Assembly: GCA_029261035.1 (NCBI GenBank)
Contig: JAJDCD010000024.1
Span: forward strand, 1 to 6,736
DNA length: 6,736 nucleotides
Source: Candidatus Omnitrophota bacterium
GTDB lineage: Bacteria; Omnitrophota; Omnitrophia; Omnitrophales; JACROU01
Reading direction: 5' to 3'
A program made the translations under genes and the position numbers. The notes under the pieces are model-generated. The model was not told the origin of the DNA. It ran no database searches and saw only the letters and a program-made list of their open reading frames with translations. The number at the start of each line of letters is the position of its first letter. Position 1 is the first letter of the stretch. Positions 1 to 6,736 of the stretch are shown here, piece after piece.

Positions 1-132
1 AATATATTCAAATGTTCCAGAATTAGTATCTTGAGTTAATCCTGTAATTGTTTCAGTTCCGATTAATTGAACTGTTCCATCATTAGAGAATGTTGCTGAT
101 GTCATAGTCCAACTCTGTCCATTCAAATCCAA
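1..132 (-). repeat. Punctuating module ETITGLTQD, copy 2 (cut by window edge)
   Basis: LDLNGQSWTMTSATFSNDG, then TVQLIGTETITGLTQD and SGTFEYI at the left edge. It aligns without gaps to 3667-3798, offset 3,666 bases. Leu in copy 1 is replaced by Trp here (NGQSW, codon 109-111). If the order of the first super-unit holds, a GDGDT-type linker, GTFNAG repeats and a third Trp module should follow just outside the window. Confidence 0.8.
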
Positions 133-3100
133 AGTACTTCCAGATTCAATTGCAACGGTTCGGCTAGCAGAAACCGTTAAAGCACTTAGCAATTGCAGTG
201 TACTGTTATTTAAAATATTTAAATTAGATCCAAAGGTTCCAGCACTATGAGTAAAGGTTTGAGTCCCCCCCGCGTTCATTTTTAATGTTAGATTTGCATT
301 TAATCCAAAAGTTCCAGCTGATTGATTATAATTACCACCAACGGCAAGGGATACGATTCCAACGGTACTTACTACCGTTGCACCAGAAAAAATCACATTG
401 CCCGTCACCGTAAAATCATTTCCATTAACAGCTAAAGATTTGGTGAAATTAAGAGAATTTCCAAAAGTTAACTCCCCTATACTTCCTGCTTCTTGTGTAA
501 GAGTCACTGAAGCATTTCCAGCTATGGTTAAAGCTTGGATTGTTCCTCCTGTTTGATTGATAGCTCTATTTGCAATTAGCTCTCCAGCTCCTACGGTTAC
601 CTGACCATCAGAAATCGTAAATGTATTATCCAGAGTTAATGTATTGTCCCCAACAGCAAACACCACCCCTGAAGCTGCAATCGTTAGCGTTCCAATCGCG
701 TCCATATCAAAATCACTTTGTAAATTAATTGTTTCATTCGCATCATCTAAAACGAGTTGCGCTCGGAAGGTATTAATCGTCGCTGAAGGCGTAAAGTTAT
801 GAGTCGTATCACCAGTGAATTTAAGATTTAAATTGATAGAACCAAAAATTCCCGTTCCACTATGCAGAAAATCCCCACCCACCGTAATATTAAATGGGCC
901 TCCCGATGTATTTACAACACCTGTATCCGTTAAAGTTAAATCTCCTAAAGTTGTAAAGTCCCCAGTAATAAATTTAGTAAAGGAATTTGTATGCTCGAAA
1001 CGCACATGATTAAATGTTGCTCCTCCTAAATTAATAGAATCAGAAGTGGTCGTTCCATCTATAGTAAAGGTTCCAGAATTATGATTTAAAGTCGTCGTGG
1101 TTCCAATACCACTAATCGTCACATCATCATCTAAAGTAGCTGTTCCAGATGGTAAATCAAAAACACCTCCACTTACGGTCACTATTCCATTAAAGTCTAA
1201 AGTTCCAAGAACAGCATCTAATGTTCCTCCGGTTTGAGTATAAGATCCTTCACTTGTTAAAGTATGAACTCCAATATCTAAGGTTCCATTTTGTATTGTG
1301 ACACTACCAGTGGCGCCTACGGTTAGTGACGCTATTAAGGTAACTGTTGCACCAGCATCATCCACCAACATTTGAGGAGCAAAGGTTCCAGCGGTTACAT
1401 TAATATTATGGCTAGCAGCAGTAAATTTAAGATTAAGAGTAGAATCATTTATAGAGCCAGCCGACTGAATAAAATCTCCTCCAACAACTAAATTAACAGT
1501 TCCAAGCGCAGCAGCAATAACGGCTCCTGAAATGGTGACATCACCCGTTACTGTAAAATCATTTCCATTCACTGCTAAGTTCTTTGTGAAGTTACCAGAT
1601 TCACCAAAAATTAGATCTCCAATCGTGCCACCCTCTTGCGTAATCGTTCTAGTAGAATTACCAAGAATAGTTAATTTTTGAATTGTTCCACCCGTTTGAT
1701 TTAATATATTTCCAAGAAGAACATTTCCAGAACCTACCGTTATCTGACCATCAGATATCGTAAGTGTACTATCCACAGTAACCGTGTGGGTTCCAACCGC
1801 TAAAGTGACACCAGAAGCTGAAAGTGTAATCGAGCCATTTGAATGTAAATCAAAATCATCTTGTAAAGTTACTGTTTCATTTACATCATCTAAAACCATT
1901 TGAGCTTGGAATGTATTAGCCGTAGCTGAAGTAAAGTTATGGTTTGTATCGCCATCAAATTTAAGATTAAGGTTCGCTGTTCCAAACTGGCCTGATCCAG
2001 ATAATACAACGTCTCCTCGAACAGTAATGGTATGAGGGCCTCCACTTGTGGTCACTAAACCACTATTAATCTGGGTTAAATCTCCCAACACTGTAAAATC
2101 ATTAGCAACAAGTCTTTGCCATCCGAAATTATTTTCAAATCGAACGTTATTAAATGTATGTCCACCCAAGTCTACATTCACACTGTTAGAGTTTCCATCC
2201 ATAATAAATGTTCCACTACTATGAGTAAATGTCACCCCTGCTGCAATTGTTACTTGATTATTCGCAGTCCAAGTTCCTGTAGCACTTGGAGCTGTAAAAC
2301 TTCCAGAAGAAACTGTGAATACATTATTAAAATCAATAACTGAAGAAACTCCAGCTATAAAAGCTCCTGTTTGTGTATAGGTTCCAGCAGCAGTTAAGTT
2401 GCCGGTCGCTCCAAGAACCATCGTTCCTTGAACATCTATAATGGAACTTGTGCCCGATCCAGTTGTGGTCGTTCCAGAGTCCACCGTATAACTATGACCG
2501 GATGGAATCAAGAGTCGTTTAAAATTAGCTAAAGTAATATTTCCTGATCCATCAGATGCGTAAATATTGGTAATATCAAATCCACCCACCGCATCCGCAG
2601 TATCTAAGTTTGCACTAGTGGTGCTTCCTCCTTGTTCATTTCGAACAATTAATCGATCGTCAACCACATCTATTCCTGTTAATCCATCACTGTCCGCTAT
2701 AGTAACCGTTACACCATCTTCACTCGCTCCACTGATGATAAGTGTGATAACTTGTCCTGATGAAAATGTAAGCCCTGTAACTTCAAAGGCTCCTGATGCA
2801 GCATTTGTGCTAGCTGTTTGACCACTATCTACCCCATTGATATGAACAGCAATTGTTCTACTTCCTAAAGCACTACTTCCATTTGTTTGATAAGCTACTC
2901 CTGCAATAGATCCAGAAAAAATCCAATTCGTATTATTCCCCCCACTCACACTTCCAGTTCCTCGAGCATCAATCACTGTGGCATTTACATTATTACTATC
3001 GCTTACATTTAAATTAGAGATTGTTCTAGTGCCTTGTGGATCAATTTCCCATTGTGTGGATGGAGTACTACTTACTAACGATAATCTATCTCCTGTGCTA

Positions 3101-6100
3101 AACCCTTGAGCTGTCCATGTTCCGGCTACAATCACTCTTCTTCCTGCAGTAAACGTTAAGGTGTCTGCTGCAGATAATTCAATATTACTTAAATTATTAA
3201 ATGTGGTATTTGTTCCTATTGCAGATACGGTCTGTAATGTTCCTAGTAAATTAACGGTTCCTGTTCCCGCATTAAATGTTCCCCCACTGTGTAAGAAGTC
3301 TCCGGATAAATCCAATGTGGATGAATCCATATTTACGACACCCCCTTGGATATCCCAATTTCCAGCTTCTGTGATTGTTCCACTTCCTGCATTAAATGTT
3401 CCACTAGTAAAGGTTGTCGTATTTGCTGTCATGGTTAGATCACCACCCGCTGTAAACGTTCCTCCACTTTGGGTGTAAGATGCGGTGGTTAAAGTATTTG
3501 CTGATGAGGTGACGACTCCTCCGACAACTGTTAAGGTTCCTGCGATGGTGTGGTTATCAAAATCAAATTGATCATTGCTATCAGTTGGGTTAATCGTGAT
3601 ATTAAAGTAATCTGTAACACCATTGTCTGGAATACTATAAGTATCAGCAAGTGTATCTCCATCACCAATAAATTCAAAAAGTCCGGAATCAATATCTTGT
3701 GTTAAGCCTGTGATCGTCTCAATGCCAATAAGTTGCACGACTCCGTCATTAGAAAAAGTGGAGCCATTCATGGTTAAGGATTGTCCATTTAATACCAATG
3801 TTCCAGCAGTTACATCAAGTGCCCTTGCCACATCAAAAGACAACGCATTGTTTAATGTTACTTCCCCACCTGTTTTATTCACTTCAAAATTGGTTCTGAA
3901 TCGCCCCGTGGTTTTCGTGAAAGTTTGTGAGGCGTTACCCCTGAAAGCCAACGTCAAGGTGTCCGAGACATTCGATCCAAAATTGACATTGATGGTTAAC
4001 GAGAAGTTACCAAATAAATTAATTGTGCGAGAGGTTCCATCCCCTTGAATTGTGACAGCTGTCGAAATGGAAGCAACCGATAAATTTCCTGTAATCGTAA
4101 AATCACTACCAAGTGTATACGTCCCTGTATTATTTGAAAAAGTAAGATTGTCTATAGTCGCTCCACCACTTTGCGTTATAGTTACCGTTGTTCCATCCAA
4201 GATAAGAGACGCTAAGGTTCCACCACTTTGATCAAATGTAGAGCTAGCTCGAACAGCCCCTGCAGAAGCTAGAACAGTTCCACCCGTCTGTGAAAATGCT
4301 CGATCTACATTAAGTGTATTATTACCCACATCTAATGTTCCCGCAGTCATGGTAAAAGACCCCGTCGTTTCAACCTGAAAATCTGCTGATATCAGAGTCA
4401 CAGTTCCACCCGTCTTATTAATCACCAAATTTCCTCTGAAGAATCCACCCGTATCAGATAAGGTTTGATTTCCACTGCCAGTCACTTCTAACGTTAAGTT
4501 ATCATCACCGAAAACACCCTGTGTCTGCGAATAGTTTCCTTGTAAAAAGACGGTGCGAGCACTTCCATCTGCAAAAATTTTAGCATTCGTACCTCCAGAT
4601 ACCGATGATACGGTTAAATTACCAGTCACTGTGATATTGCTCGTGATCGTTACCGTCCCCGTTGTATTATTAAAAATCAAATTTGTCAACGTACCGCCAC
4701 TTTGAGATATCGTTGGACTCGTTGCATCGTTCCCCACCGTTAATTCATCAATCGTTCCACCCTGCAAGCTGATATTGCCATCCACCTGCAATGTTCCTGC
4801 GGATGCAATCACATCTCCTCCCGTTTGTGTGAAAGCTAAATCCACTTCCAACAGATTTGTTCCCAAATCTAAATCTCCGTTAATCATCGTTAACGTTCCT
4901 TGTGACTGTATGCGCAACCCTGAAAGAAGTGTTAACGTCGTATCCGCTGTCTTATTAACTTCCAGATTAGCTCTGAAATTACCCGCTGTTCTATTAATGG
5001 TTTGAGCACTTCCCCCTTCAAAAGACAAGATTAAATTTGAATTAGAACTGGATCCAAAATTACCCCCATTCGTCATTGCAAAATTACCAAACAAATGAAT
5101 TCGACGTATTGCATCTGCCGTTATCGTATTAGACGTGGATATAGGTGAGTAGTTCAAATTGCCTAGCACGGTTAAATCACTGGTTAAAGTAAAGGTTCCT
5201 GTACTATTTCTAAATGTGAAGTCGGTGATATTACCACCCGTTTGATTGATCGTAATCGTCGTCCCATTCAATCGAACAGACTCCAAATCTCCACTTGAAA
5301 TCGAAAAGTTACCATCCACATCTAGGTTGCCAGAACCCGATTGCATGGTTCCACCTGTTTGGATGTAATCCCCTTCAACATCCAATAAGTTAATACCCAA
5401 ATCTACCGTTCCTGACGTCAGGGTGAAAGATCCTGTTGACCGAAGAAGGAAAATTGCGGAGGTCAGAGTTAACGTACCTCCAGATTTATTGACCTCCGTA
5501 ATCAATCGATAAGTCCCTCCGGAAATTTTAGAAAATGTTTGGCTGCCAGAACCGCTAAATAATAACTTCAAGTCATTCGCTCCGGACTGACCAACAACCG
5601 TCGAAGTCGTCTGCGAATAATTCCCTAAAAGGGTAATTGTCCTTAAGGTTCCGTCTCCTCTAAGTGTGGATGAACCGGAGACAGGTGCCATAGACAAATT
5701 GCCATTCACCGTAAAATCAGAAGTGATTGTTTTTGTGGATGTGCTTGGGTTAAATGTTAAATTATTAAATGTTCCACCCTGTGGATCAATAATAGCGCTG
5801 GTCCCTGCGATAATCACCGTGCCTGAAGTTGAAAAGCTTCCGGCACCATTCACATCAAAATCTCCAGCCACCGTTATGGTATTAGCTCCCATCGTAAATG
5901 TTCCTTCAATAATAAGATCGGTGTTATTTGTTCCGAACCCAACCCGCACATCCCCCTGAGCTTCATACGTCATGCCTGCCGGAATAAATAGCGCACTACC
6001 ATTAGTTACCGTCACTTCAGCGCCAGCCATGGTGTATATCGCATTCACATCCGTATCACTCACATTATTTGCCACATCTAAATTACCGTTTGTGATCGGT

Positions 6101-6735
6101 CCCGCATTTTCGTGGCGTACAGTTAAATGATTTTGATACAAATCGATACCTGTCAAACCAGCTGCATTGGATAGGGTTACGGTAACCGCGTTTGGAGTTT
6201 CATTATCAATAAACACAGTCACCACATCCCCGGACACTAAAGTTAAACCTGTTATTTCGTAACTACCGGAAGCCACTGAATCCGAACTTCCACTGACAGC
6301 CGCACCATTAATTGAAACAGAAATAGTCATACTCCCAAGTCCAGCTCCTCCTATCGAATCCAACACCAACCCACTAATAGACCCTGAAAACAACCAATTT
6401 GTATTACCTCCATTTGAAATACTTCCCGTACCAATCGCGTTAATAATCGTCGCATTGACATTATTACTATCCGTTACATTCAAGTTAGAGATTGTTCTTG
6501 TTCCTTGTGGGTCAATTTCCCATTGGGTGGCTGGTGAGCTACTAACAAGAGACAATCGATCTCCTGTTCCAAATCCTTGCGCTGTCCATGTTCCAGCTAC
6601 AATCACTCTTCTTCCAGCCGTAAACGTTAAGGTGTCTGTAGCAGATAATTCAATATTACTTAAATTATTAAAAGTAGTGTTTGTTCCTATGGCGGATACG
6701 GTTTGTAATGTTCCTACTAAGTTAACCGTTCCTGT
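1..6735 (-). CDS. Giant repetitive beta-solenoid-like surface protein, internal fragment open at both ends
   Basis: I read every codon of this minus-strand frame and found no stop in 2,245 codons. The gene starts beyond the right edge and ends beyond the left edge, so the start codon, signal peptide and C-terminal anchor are not visible. The product is dominated by Thr, Gly, Ser, Asn and aliphatic residues, has no Cys, and has ten Trp. Short strand-turn motifs (TQTGGT, SGTFNAG, GNLTV, TFNNLTF) recur throughout, and larger modules repeat in frame at 178-180, about 375 and about 1,157-1,222 residues. Such patterns are typical of secreted right-handed beta-solenoid proteins: filamentous adhesins and the giant beta-strand-repeat proteins of uncultured Gram-negative bacteria. 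The role is therefore inferred to be adhesion or a surface fibre. No enzyme domain, peptidase motif or transmembrane segment was recognised. Repeat lengths are all multiples of three, and there is no sign of frameshift or decay. The open frame is certain; the functional class is inferred. Confidence 0.93.
133..1248 (-). repeat. Long solenoid repeat of 372 residues, copy 2
   Basis: Direct in-frame repeat of 1249-2385: GSYTQTGGTLDAVLGTLDFNG, LNHNSGTFTIDG, LGGATFNHVRFEHT, FTTLGDLTL, NLNLKFTGDTTHNFT, LVLDDANETINLQSDFD, LTQEAGSIGELTFG, LAVNGNDFTVTGNV, NYNQSAGTFG, THSAGTFGSNLNILNN. The second DD element has become LNN (205-213), where copy 1 has VDD, so the tail of this unit is more worn. It passes directly into the punctuating module at 1-132. 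His codons are noticeably more frequent in this pair of repeats than in units A-D. Confidence 0.82.
1249..2385 (-). repeat. Long solenoid repeat of 379 residues, copy 1
   Basis: It starts GTYTQTG, then DFNNVFTVSSGSF, FTHSSGTFIMDG, LGGHTFNNVRFENN, FTVLGDLTQ, NLNLKFDGDTNHNFT, MVLDDVNETVTLQDDFD, FTVTGDVTISGAV, IQSAGS and MLVDDAGATVTL. Copy 2 follows immediately at a spacing of 1,137-1,149 bases depending on the anchor (1,143 over LDD-NET and AVNGNDFTVTG). Within the unit, DD-N/G-T-TL occurs twice (ending at 1893 and 1365), so each long repeat appears to be two diverged halves of about 176 and 205 residues, close in size to the 178-180-residue repeats. An RGD triplet at 2011-2019 is replaced by GGD in copy 2. 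Confidence 0.82.
2386..2472 (-). other. Short solenoid bridge into the 375-residue repeats
   Basis: About 29 residues (SIIDVQGTMVLGATGNLTAA) joining the second beta-sandwich-like module to the first long repeat. IIDVQGTMVLG matches in style the LIIEGTFTMG element at the start of the longer spacer at 5728-5952, so this is probably a shortened equivalent. Nothing else is distinctive. Confidence 0.5.
2473..2898 (-). repeat. Beta-sandwich-like module, copy 2 (GLTGID / VRNE motif)
   Basis: Diverged partner of 5953-6369, about 142 residues: SRTIAVHING, GAFEVTGLTFSSGQVITLIISG, DGVTVTIADSDGLTGIDVVDD, LIVRNEQGG, then FKRLLIPSGHSYTVDSG. Shared anchors are the NG turn, A-G-(Y/F)E(I/V)TGL, SG-V-T, VTVT, GLTGID and L-VR-E. 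The offset to copy 1 shifts between 3,471 and 3,477 bases along the module, showing small in-frame indels. Much lower identity than the adjacent Trp module suggests this part is free to vary or is diversifying, as would fit an exposed binding module; that is inference. The family is unnamed. Confidence 0.68.
2899..3264 (-). repeat. Trp-containing solenoid module, copy 2 (ends in NWIFSG)
   Basis: Near-duplicate of 6370-6735, offset by exactly 3,471 bases with the reading frame kept. Anchors correspond one to one: the Trp codons at 3115-3117, 3049-3051 and 2923-2925 match those of copy 1. By hand comparison about 13 of roughly 118 residues differ, mostly conservatively and mostly toward the NWIFSG end. 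In the 145 or so bases nearest its coding start, about 14 bases differ but only two residues change, so most DNA differences there are silent. The neighbouring modules are far less similar, which points to strong constraint or local gene conversion on this module. Confidence 0.88.
3265..3666 (-). repeat. GTFNAG-type short solenoid repeats
   Basis: About 134 residues linking the punctuating module to the second Trp module. An Asp-rich entry (DYFNITINPTDSNDQFDFDN) is followed by GTLTVVGG, SYTQSGGTFTAGGDLTM, SGTFNAGSGTITEAGNWDIQGG and DFLHSGGTFNAG. The GTFNAG elements end near 3391 and 3271, exactly 120 bases (40 residues) apart, with a related GTFTAG 60 bases earlier in coding order. This SGGTFNAG-SGTV pattern is, to my knowledge, common in large secreted bacterial repeat proteins and is the clearest beta-solenoid signature in the window. 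By analogy, the first Trp module should be preceded by a similar stretch just beyond the right edge. Confidence 0.75.
3667..3798 (-). repeat. Punctuating module ETITGLTQD, copy 1
   Basis: A 44-residue segment reading LVLNGQSLTMNGSTFSNDG, then VVQLIGIETITGLTQD and SGLFEFI. The same module recurs in frame 3,666 bases further along the gene (1-132) with few changes. Each copy directly follows a solenoid array, so it probably marks the end of an array and of a super-unit. After it the protein continues GDGDTLADTYSIPDNG into the GTFNAG stretch. I do not recognise a named domain. Confidence 0.8.
3799..4113 (-). repeat. Truncated 178-180-residue solenoid repeat, unit D
   Basis: Fourth unit, only about 105 residues long. 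It matches the first half of A-C: LGSDFTITGNL, GDGTSRTINLFGNFSLT, GNASQTFTKTTGRFRTNFEVNKTGGEVTL (EVNK at 3874-3885). After that it leaves the repeat pattern and passes through ARALDVTAGT into the punctuating module at 3667-3798. The TQTGG and final TGG-TNL-F parts of the unit are missing. The array therefore ends mid-unit, as if the last unit had been joined to a fixed tail module. Confidence 0.8.
4114..4647 (-). repeat. 178-180-residue solenoid repeat, unit C
   Basis: Third unit, 178 residues: ITSNITVTGNL, ADGSARTVFLQGNYSQT, GSGNQTLSDTGGFFRGNLVINKTGGTVTL, GTLDVGNNTLNVDRAFSQTGGT, DQSGGTLASLIL, ITQSGGATIDNLTFSNNTGTY. The VINK landmark (4414-4425) replaces EVNK and is 540 bases from the one in unit D. 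It is clearly homologous to A and B; drift is spread through the unit with small in-frame indels. Confidence 0.85.
4648..5187 (-). repeat. 178-180-residue solenoid repeat, unit B
   Basis: Second unit, 180 residues. It runs LTSDLTVLGNL, ADAIRRIHLFGNFAMT, GGSAQTINRTAGNFRANLEVNK, GDLDLGTNLLEVDLAFTQTGGD, GNISLQGGTIDELTV, ISQSGGTLTNLIFNNTTGTV. It keeps all landmarks of unit A, but the DG-(T/S)-RT element is altered to ADAIRR. EVNK is at 4951-4962, 537 bases from the matching VINK of unit C. Confidence 0.85.
5188..5727 (-). repeat. 178-180-residue solenoid repeat, unit A
   Basis: First of four tandem units. It starts ITSDFTVNGNL, continues through GDGTLRTITLLGNYSQT, GSGSQTFSK, TEVNKSGGTLTLTSA, GTVDLGINLLDVEGDYIQTGGT, and ends with ITINQTGGNITDFTFRNSTGTF just before the next unit. 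The EVNK landmark (5485-5496) lies 534 bases before that of unit B in coding order. The unit contains roughly six to seven short strand-turn elements. An RGD triplet (5653-5661) appears here, but the aligned positions in the other units read GD or AD without Arg-Gly-Asp. Confidence 0.85.
5728..5952 (-). other. Solenoid spacer between beta-sandwich-like module and 180-residue repeats
   Basis: About 75 residues of short beta-strand repeats: DLIIEGTFTMG, NTITVAGDFDV, GSFSTSGTVIIAG, then IDPQGGTFNNLTF leading into the first 180-residue unit. The IDPQGG element also occurs in the Trp modules (EIDPQGTRTISNL), so the same kind of turn is reused at different levels. The equivalent place in the second super-unit (2386-2472) holds only about 29 residues, so this spacer varies in length. 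Confidence 0.6.
5953..6369 (-). repeat. Beta-sandwich-like module, copy 1 (GLTGID / VRHE motif)
   Basis: This module of about 139 residues follows the Trp module and differs in style from the solenoid. It has alternating-strand stretches (MTISVSING, SYEITGLTL, GDVVTVFIDNE, AVTVTLSNA), then GLTGIDLYQN, LTVRHEN and an IPAGMTYEAQG ending. The motif order is hydrophobic strand, NG turn, SGSY-ITGL, SGDVVTV-I, VTVTLS, GLTGID, L-VR-EN. It suggests a compact Ig-like or carboxypeptidase-regulatory-like beta-sandwich, but I cannot assign a named family. The second copy lies at 2473-2898 and shares these anchors at much lower identity than the Trp modules show. It may act as a ligand-binding knob or a spacer between solenoid rods; that is inference. 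Confidence 0.7.
6370..6735 (-). repeat. Trp-containing solenoid module, copy 1 (ends in NWLFSG)
   Basis: This is the first module in coding order. It begins TGTVNLVGTLQT at the window edge, so its true start may lie outside. It continues through TFNNLSNIELS, a basic AGRRVIVAGTW stretch and QWEIDPQGTRTISNLNVTDS, and ends NTNWLFSGSISG. Three of the ten Trp codons lie here (6586-6588, 6520-6522, 6394-6396). The ending, DSNN followed by Ala/Ile-rich strands and then GN-NW-FSG, resembles from memory the terminal turns of solenoid segments in large secreted bacterial repeat proteins. It may close one solenoid before the following beta-sandwich-like module. The second copy (2899-3264) sits exactly 3,471 bases away, in frame. 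Confidence 0.85.
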
Positions 6736-6736
6736 T

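Follow-up and report, generated by a model that had tools for sequence, protein, structure and literature searches.

The window, i.e., the whole analysed stretch of 6,736 nt, corresponds to the complete contig C17 of genome G000 (2.70 Mb, 94.8% complete). From edge to edge it is occupied by a single open frame of 2245 aa on the minus strand (1-6735), with the N-terminal side at position 6735, the C-terminal side at position 1, and neither a start nor a stop in between. The original prediction had described one stop-free frame of 2,245 sense codons without giving a strand, and the ORF scan confirmed it with zero stops. The other five frames are interrupted by 55 to 220 stops, and in 300 order-1 simulations of the window the longest stop-free run averaged 124 aa and did not exceed 227 aa. 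The codon-position GC of the minus-strand frame is 0.44/0.50/0.28, and dN/dS between repeat copies ranges from 0.13 to 0.32 for copies that are 53-71% identical at the protein level. Taken together, codon-position GC and dN/dS indicate that the frame is coding and selected, the dN/dS values pointing to purifying selection on the protein. Thr (16%), Gly (13%), Ser (10%), and Asn (9%) are prominent in its composition, and cysteine is absent. The profile search of the translation against Pfam and NCBIfam as well as the PDB sequence search returned nothing above cut-off for the window itself, and no match was obtained in the viral contigs searched.

The strongest self-match of the frame occurs at a lag of 1157 aa (3471 nt), with 74.6% identity over aa 1-176, and a repeat with 3471-nt spacing is observed at the DNA level as well. 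The frame is thus composed of super-unit 1 (aa 1-1157; 3265-6735) and, according to the self-match, 1088 aa of an incomplete super-unit 2 (aa 1158-2245; 1-3264), in agreement with the one super-unit and most of a second that had been predicted. Each super-unit runs from a cap module of ~115 aa through an Ig-like module of ~90 aa and a solenoid of ~180-aa repeats to a conserved end module, all of them on the minus strand. In case of super-unit 1, the cap module (aa 3-117; 6385-6729; motif TQWEIDPQGTRTI) was detected with an HMM derived from the window and the Ig-like module (aa 118-207; 6115-6384) by module search. They are followed by the predicted beta-helix of ~180-aa repeats (aa 275-989; 3769-5913), which is apparent from self-matches with lags of 178-183 aa and was modelled in part, and by the end module (aa 984-1023; 3667-3786; GQSLTMNGSTFSNDGVVQLIGIETITGL), the core of which is 78% identical to aa 2214-2245. 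In super-unit 2, the second cap module (aa 1160-1274; 2914-3258; same HMM) and Ig-like module (aa 1275-1365; 2641-2913; module search) precede a solenoid in which a 380-aa block is present twice (aa 1447-1825 at 1261-2397 and aa 1826-2205 at 121-1260; self-match with 53-59% identity at a lag of 379-381 aa). The end module of super-unit 2, likewise found by self-match (aa 2206-2245; 1-120), is cut by the contig end.

The model of aa 440-810 (4306-5418) is an all-beta solenoid (pLDDT 88.8, pTM 0.88), and a beta-helix is hence confidently predicted for this region. Foldseek alone found no match to this model below E 0.001. Aligning the Foldseek candidates with VIA-align 2 gave the autotransporter UpaB (Z 15.0, rmsd 4.9, 297 aligned), EspP (Z 13.7), and the TPS adhesin EtpA (Z 12.1, rmsd 4.4, 336 aligned). 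The arrangement that the window model has in common with UpaB and EtpA would fit a kinship but is no proof of it. The cap/Ig junction (aa 1040-1470) was modelled poorly (pLDDT 55), with an unusable Foldseek list, and the label Ig-like therefore refers to the sequence pattern only.

A protein search revealed window-type repeats, free of stops, on 12 contigs of the genome, C17 included. Adding C13 and the far C8 end, which are linked by exact overlap, gives 15 giant fragments with a total of 50,053 aa, i.e., ~5.6% of the genome. Within these fragments the cap module occurs in 34 copies according to the window-derived HMM, and the Ig-like module in 20 copies, nearly all of which directly follow a cap. 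For embedded enzyme domains, the fragments yielded nothing beyond weak DUF matches and, on C8, a GEVED domain. Four N-termini (C8, C18 start, C18 end, and C21) and four C-termini (C24, C15, C3, and C8 end) of giant genes were identified.

Neither terminus of the window's own chain is assembled. All four sibling N-termini carry a signal peptide (judged by eye) followed by a TPS domain (PF05860, E ~1e-20 to 1e-30; TIGR01901, E 1e-14 to 1e-22), and the cap module of the window is located downstream of the TPS domain in each of them; the same order is observed in several relatives. Of the terminal features raised with the original prediction, the N-terminal signal peptide was thus recovered in the siblings. 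Neither a barrel nor an effector or toxin domain was recognised in the four C-termini, one of which ends directly after a cap module.

Four genes of the genome match PF03865 (ShlB barrel) and are thus of TpsB type, with POTRA_2 in all three that were scanned. The tpsB gene on C21 is located directly upstream of a giant gene. Giant C-termini are directly followed by two tpsB genes in tandem on C8 and by a single one on C3. Close to both C18 N-termini and to the C-termini on C24 and C15, no tpsB was seen. In relatives, TPS genes repeatedly adjoin tpsB, and genome G033 encodes a complete homologue of 1807 aa with a TPS domain, a cap, and a neighbouring tpsB. Two-partner secretion is characterised by a TPS signal, a separate TpsB pore, and a passenger that is released (review, PMC6555100). 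The protein was left without an identification in the original prediction; its probable class and likely export route can now be named as TpsA-type two-partner secretion. With considerable confidence, we regard the window as part of the interior of a giant TpsA-type (type Vb), FHA-like exoprotein, of which the genome encodes about four.

According to the proposed mechanism, the Sec signal peptide and the N-terminal TPS domain would bring the chain to the TpsB pore in the outer membrane, through which it would be threaded unfolded. Outside, it would fold into a long right-handed beta-helix that a cap and an Ig-like module interrupt at intervals of about 1,100 residues, and the product would be a cysteine-free fibre acting as an adhesin or cell-contact filament. 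The absence of cysteine fits an unfolded passage through two membranes. Export of the giant protein as a single chain is presumed. Somewhat less firmly than the class assignment, we favour the view that the genome encodes ~4 TPS proteins with a mean of ~12,000 residues and more than 1 MDa each, each of them passing a TpsB pore as one chain. A rung of a beta-helix comprises ~20 residues and rises by about 4.8 angstrom, which for a 12,000-aa beta-helix would amount to a length of roughly 0.3 micrometre. The analogy to FHA-type proteins, and to giant proteins known from further cell-contact bacteria (PMC10066038, PMC4053972), makes a role in adhesion or cell contact the most likely one.

Among the alternatives, the one that survives best, although we consider it improbable, is a giant surface protein from this repeat family with TpsB-independent export, by a Sec signal and another route across or attachment to the outer membrane. 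It draws on the relative G022 of the same order, in which a 9236-aa ORF on C51 combines many window-type cap/Ig-like modules with another, signal-like N-terminal stretch and which lacks any TPS match in its genome; the cap/Ig-like modules are therefore not exclusive to TPS proteins. In the genome of the window, however, all four module-bearing N-termini possess a TPS domain and an N-terminus of the G022 type was not found.

Clearly less probable is a TPS protein of the CdiA type for contact-dependent inhibition, in which the giant stalk would present a C-terminal toxin. CdiA does belong to the TPS proteins, and its stalk is a long beta-helix (PMC6555100), but a recognised toxin domain is missing from each of the four C-termini, including the one that ends right after the cap, with the restriction that divergent toxins would escape Pfam.

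Returning to the preferred reading as one of about four giant TpsA-type proteins, its length can be bounded from the siblings. The longest fragments comprise 7494 aa (C18 start), 7145 aa (C8), and 6787 aa (C25, where a single frame fills the entire 20-kb contig), with one or both ends still open. ORFs of more than 20 kb are thus present in the siblings on C25, C8, and C18, and the window's own gene is visible over 6.7 kb and cut at both ends. The shortest N-terminal and C-terminal pieces measure 2654 aa and 779 aa, respectively, so that the smallest gene able to contain the window would encode 2654 + 2245 + 779 = ~5,700 aa. C13 and C23 may be alternative paths; without them, and on the premise that all fragments belong to four genes, the genes average ~11,900 aa. 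These length estimates assume that no further N- or C-terminus is missing from the bin. We infer that the fragment in the window belongs to one of four giant genes with a total length of at least ~5,700 aa. The claim that the gene exceeds the window, holds several super-units, and runs to many thousands of residues is supported by the long siblings and by the presence of only four N- and four C-termini. A gene of ordinary size, with start and stop just beyond both edges and a repeat protein of 2,300-3,000 aa, is very unlikely: the 1807-aa homologue in G033 and the lack of sequence beyond the window edges would allow for it, but the 15 fragments share four N- and four C-termini, even the shortest end pieces contribute 2654 and 779 aa, and both edges of the window are located within the repeat array.

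The termini of the contig explain why the gene is cut. The window begins (1-141) and ends (6596-6736) with exactly the same 141 bases as contig C23 does, each stretch representing a node of the assembly graph to which no strand is assigned, and the self-comparison places both edges inside the repeat array. Since these ends are shared exactly by C17 and C23, the assembly broke in repeats, and start and stop are unreadable from C17. Such ends presumably stem from a de Bruijn graph with k = 141 that was broken at repeats, and C17 and C23 may be separate loci or alleles of a single locus. The original prediction that no gene boundary is in view thus holds in that neither start nor stop lies inside the window, but this is in part due to the assembly contig ending at both edges. 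Extension by exact overlap was only partly successful: apart from the forks with C23, C17 was not joined to any of the contig ends compared (far ends of C16, C20, C22, and C26 left out), and its immediate neighbours are absent from the bin. Elsewhere, C14 was joined to C15 (40 bases) and either C25 or C13 to the C8 end (141 bases), giving a second fork (C13/C25) besides C17/C23. The short contigs C5 and C6 consist of N throughout. That repeat collapse or false joins have inflated the length or repetitiveness of the frame is hardly credible, for although the exact 141-base nodes and the forks C17/C23 and C13/C25 testify to repeats unresolved by the assembler, single unjoined contigs hold open frames of 6787-7494 aa with diverged copies, collapse would yield a shorter rather than a longer gene, and the repeat copies are under purifying selection.

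Compared to known systems, the giant proteins resemble the TpsA proteins FHA and EtpA in that siblings have a signal peptide and TPS domain, adjoin TpsB, have a beta-helical body, and lack a C-terminal barrel. FHA has a length of about 3,600 aa. The giants described here are several times longer, and their body differs in being composed of super-units (cap, Ig-like module, and solenoid) without a match to any Pfam family. With the type Va autotransporter passengers UpaB and EspP, which gave the best structural alignments of the window model, they share the right-handed beta-helix, but autotransporters carry a C-terminal barrel of their own and none of the four sibling C-termini does. The giant proteins Cag_0614 and Cag_0616 of Chlorobium chlorochromatii (PMC4053972) are similar, as far as a comparison by description goes, in being repeat proteins of haemagglutinin or adhesin type for which a stabilising role in cell-cell contact has been proposed; they differ in having been likened to haemagglutinin and to adhesins of the RTX family, which carry calcium-binding repeats.

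Giant genes in Omnitrophota were invoked in the original prediction and are documented in passages of Seymour et al. 2023 (PMC10066038), where they reach 39,678 aa and are called poorly understood. The frames described there agree with the present ones in exceeding 20 kb, in having few annotated domains, and in their proposed role in cell-cell adhesion, but differ in carrying transmembrane helices, discoidin, laminin-G, or dockerin domains; the passages found of that paper contain neither a description of TPS nor a mention of haemagglutinin. No paper joining Omnitrophota with two-partner secretion or filamentous hemagglutinin was found in a search that covered neither preprints nor most subscription journals.

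If the reading as about four giant TPS proteins holds true, they would rank with the largest known type Vb substrates, and the TPS domain together with the TpsB link would show by which route one group of Omnitrophota giant ORFs is exported and suggest contact fibres as their likely role. It would raise the question of how a TpsB pore copes with a chain exceeding 10,000 residues. An expenditure of ~5.6% of the genome on four giant genes would imply a strong need for cell-surface contact.

The host genome likely belongs to the Omnitrophota, as suggested by sequence comparison. In a tree of concatenated nusG-rplK-rplA-rplJ, a named Omnitrophota MAG nests among phylum-mates of the genome, and a node with 99/98 support separates this group from E. 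coli, Bacteroidetes, and a MAG labelled as Alphaproteobacteria. Support within the tree is weak at the inner nodes, and other PVC phyla were not part of it. The ribosomal-protein region was used because rpoB, gyrA, and rpoC of the named MAG were missing or present as a fragment only.

Further very long open frames of the genome are charged and non-repetitive, namely those on C9 (L069 1-8337; 2779 aa), at the end of C3 (L080 8443-16647; 2735 aa), and on C11 (L071 2-6961; 2320 aa). The frame on C11 includes an SNF2/DEAD helicase domain, and a terminal sequence is common to C9 and the C3 end. An open frame of 3282 aa at the end of C21 (L079 1-9846) is unlike the window repeats.

Between two giant genes on C8 (21.7-27.9 kb; L054 2732-8939), a 973-aa usher-like protein with SdrD_B domains is encoded beside chaperone-like and small secreted proteins, which suggests a fimbria-like cluster. 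A REP-associated transposase (Y1-type, by eye) is situated on the opposite strand between tpsB and this cluster (L054 9374-9967). Closely similar secreted cap-module proteins occur in MAGs labelled Desulfobacula and Bacteroidetes (L084 7739-11845 and L085 2-4894), which is explained either by a binning error or by horizontal transfer. In the same-family relative G005, a frame of 3796 aa on C27 (L116 3617-18473) harbours cap/Ig modules followed by RCC1-like repeats (by eye) and is separated, seemingly by frameshifts, from shorter frames on its upstream (381 aa) and downstream (821 aa) sides. The giant-gene C-terminus on C3 (L061 2-2341), which is followed by tpsB, contains nearly identical 78-aa tandem repeats that are apparently far younger than the repeats of the window.
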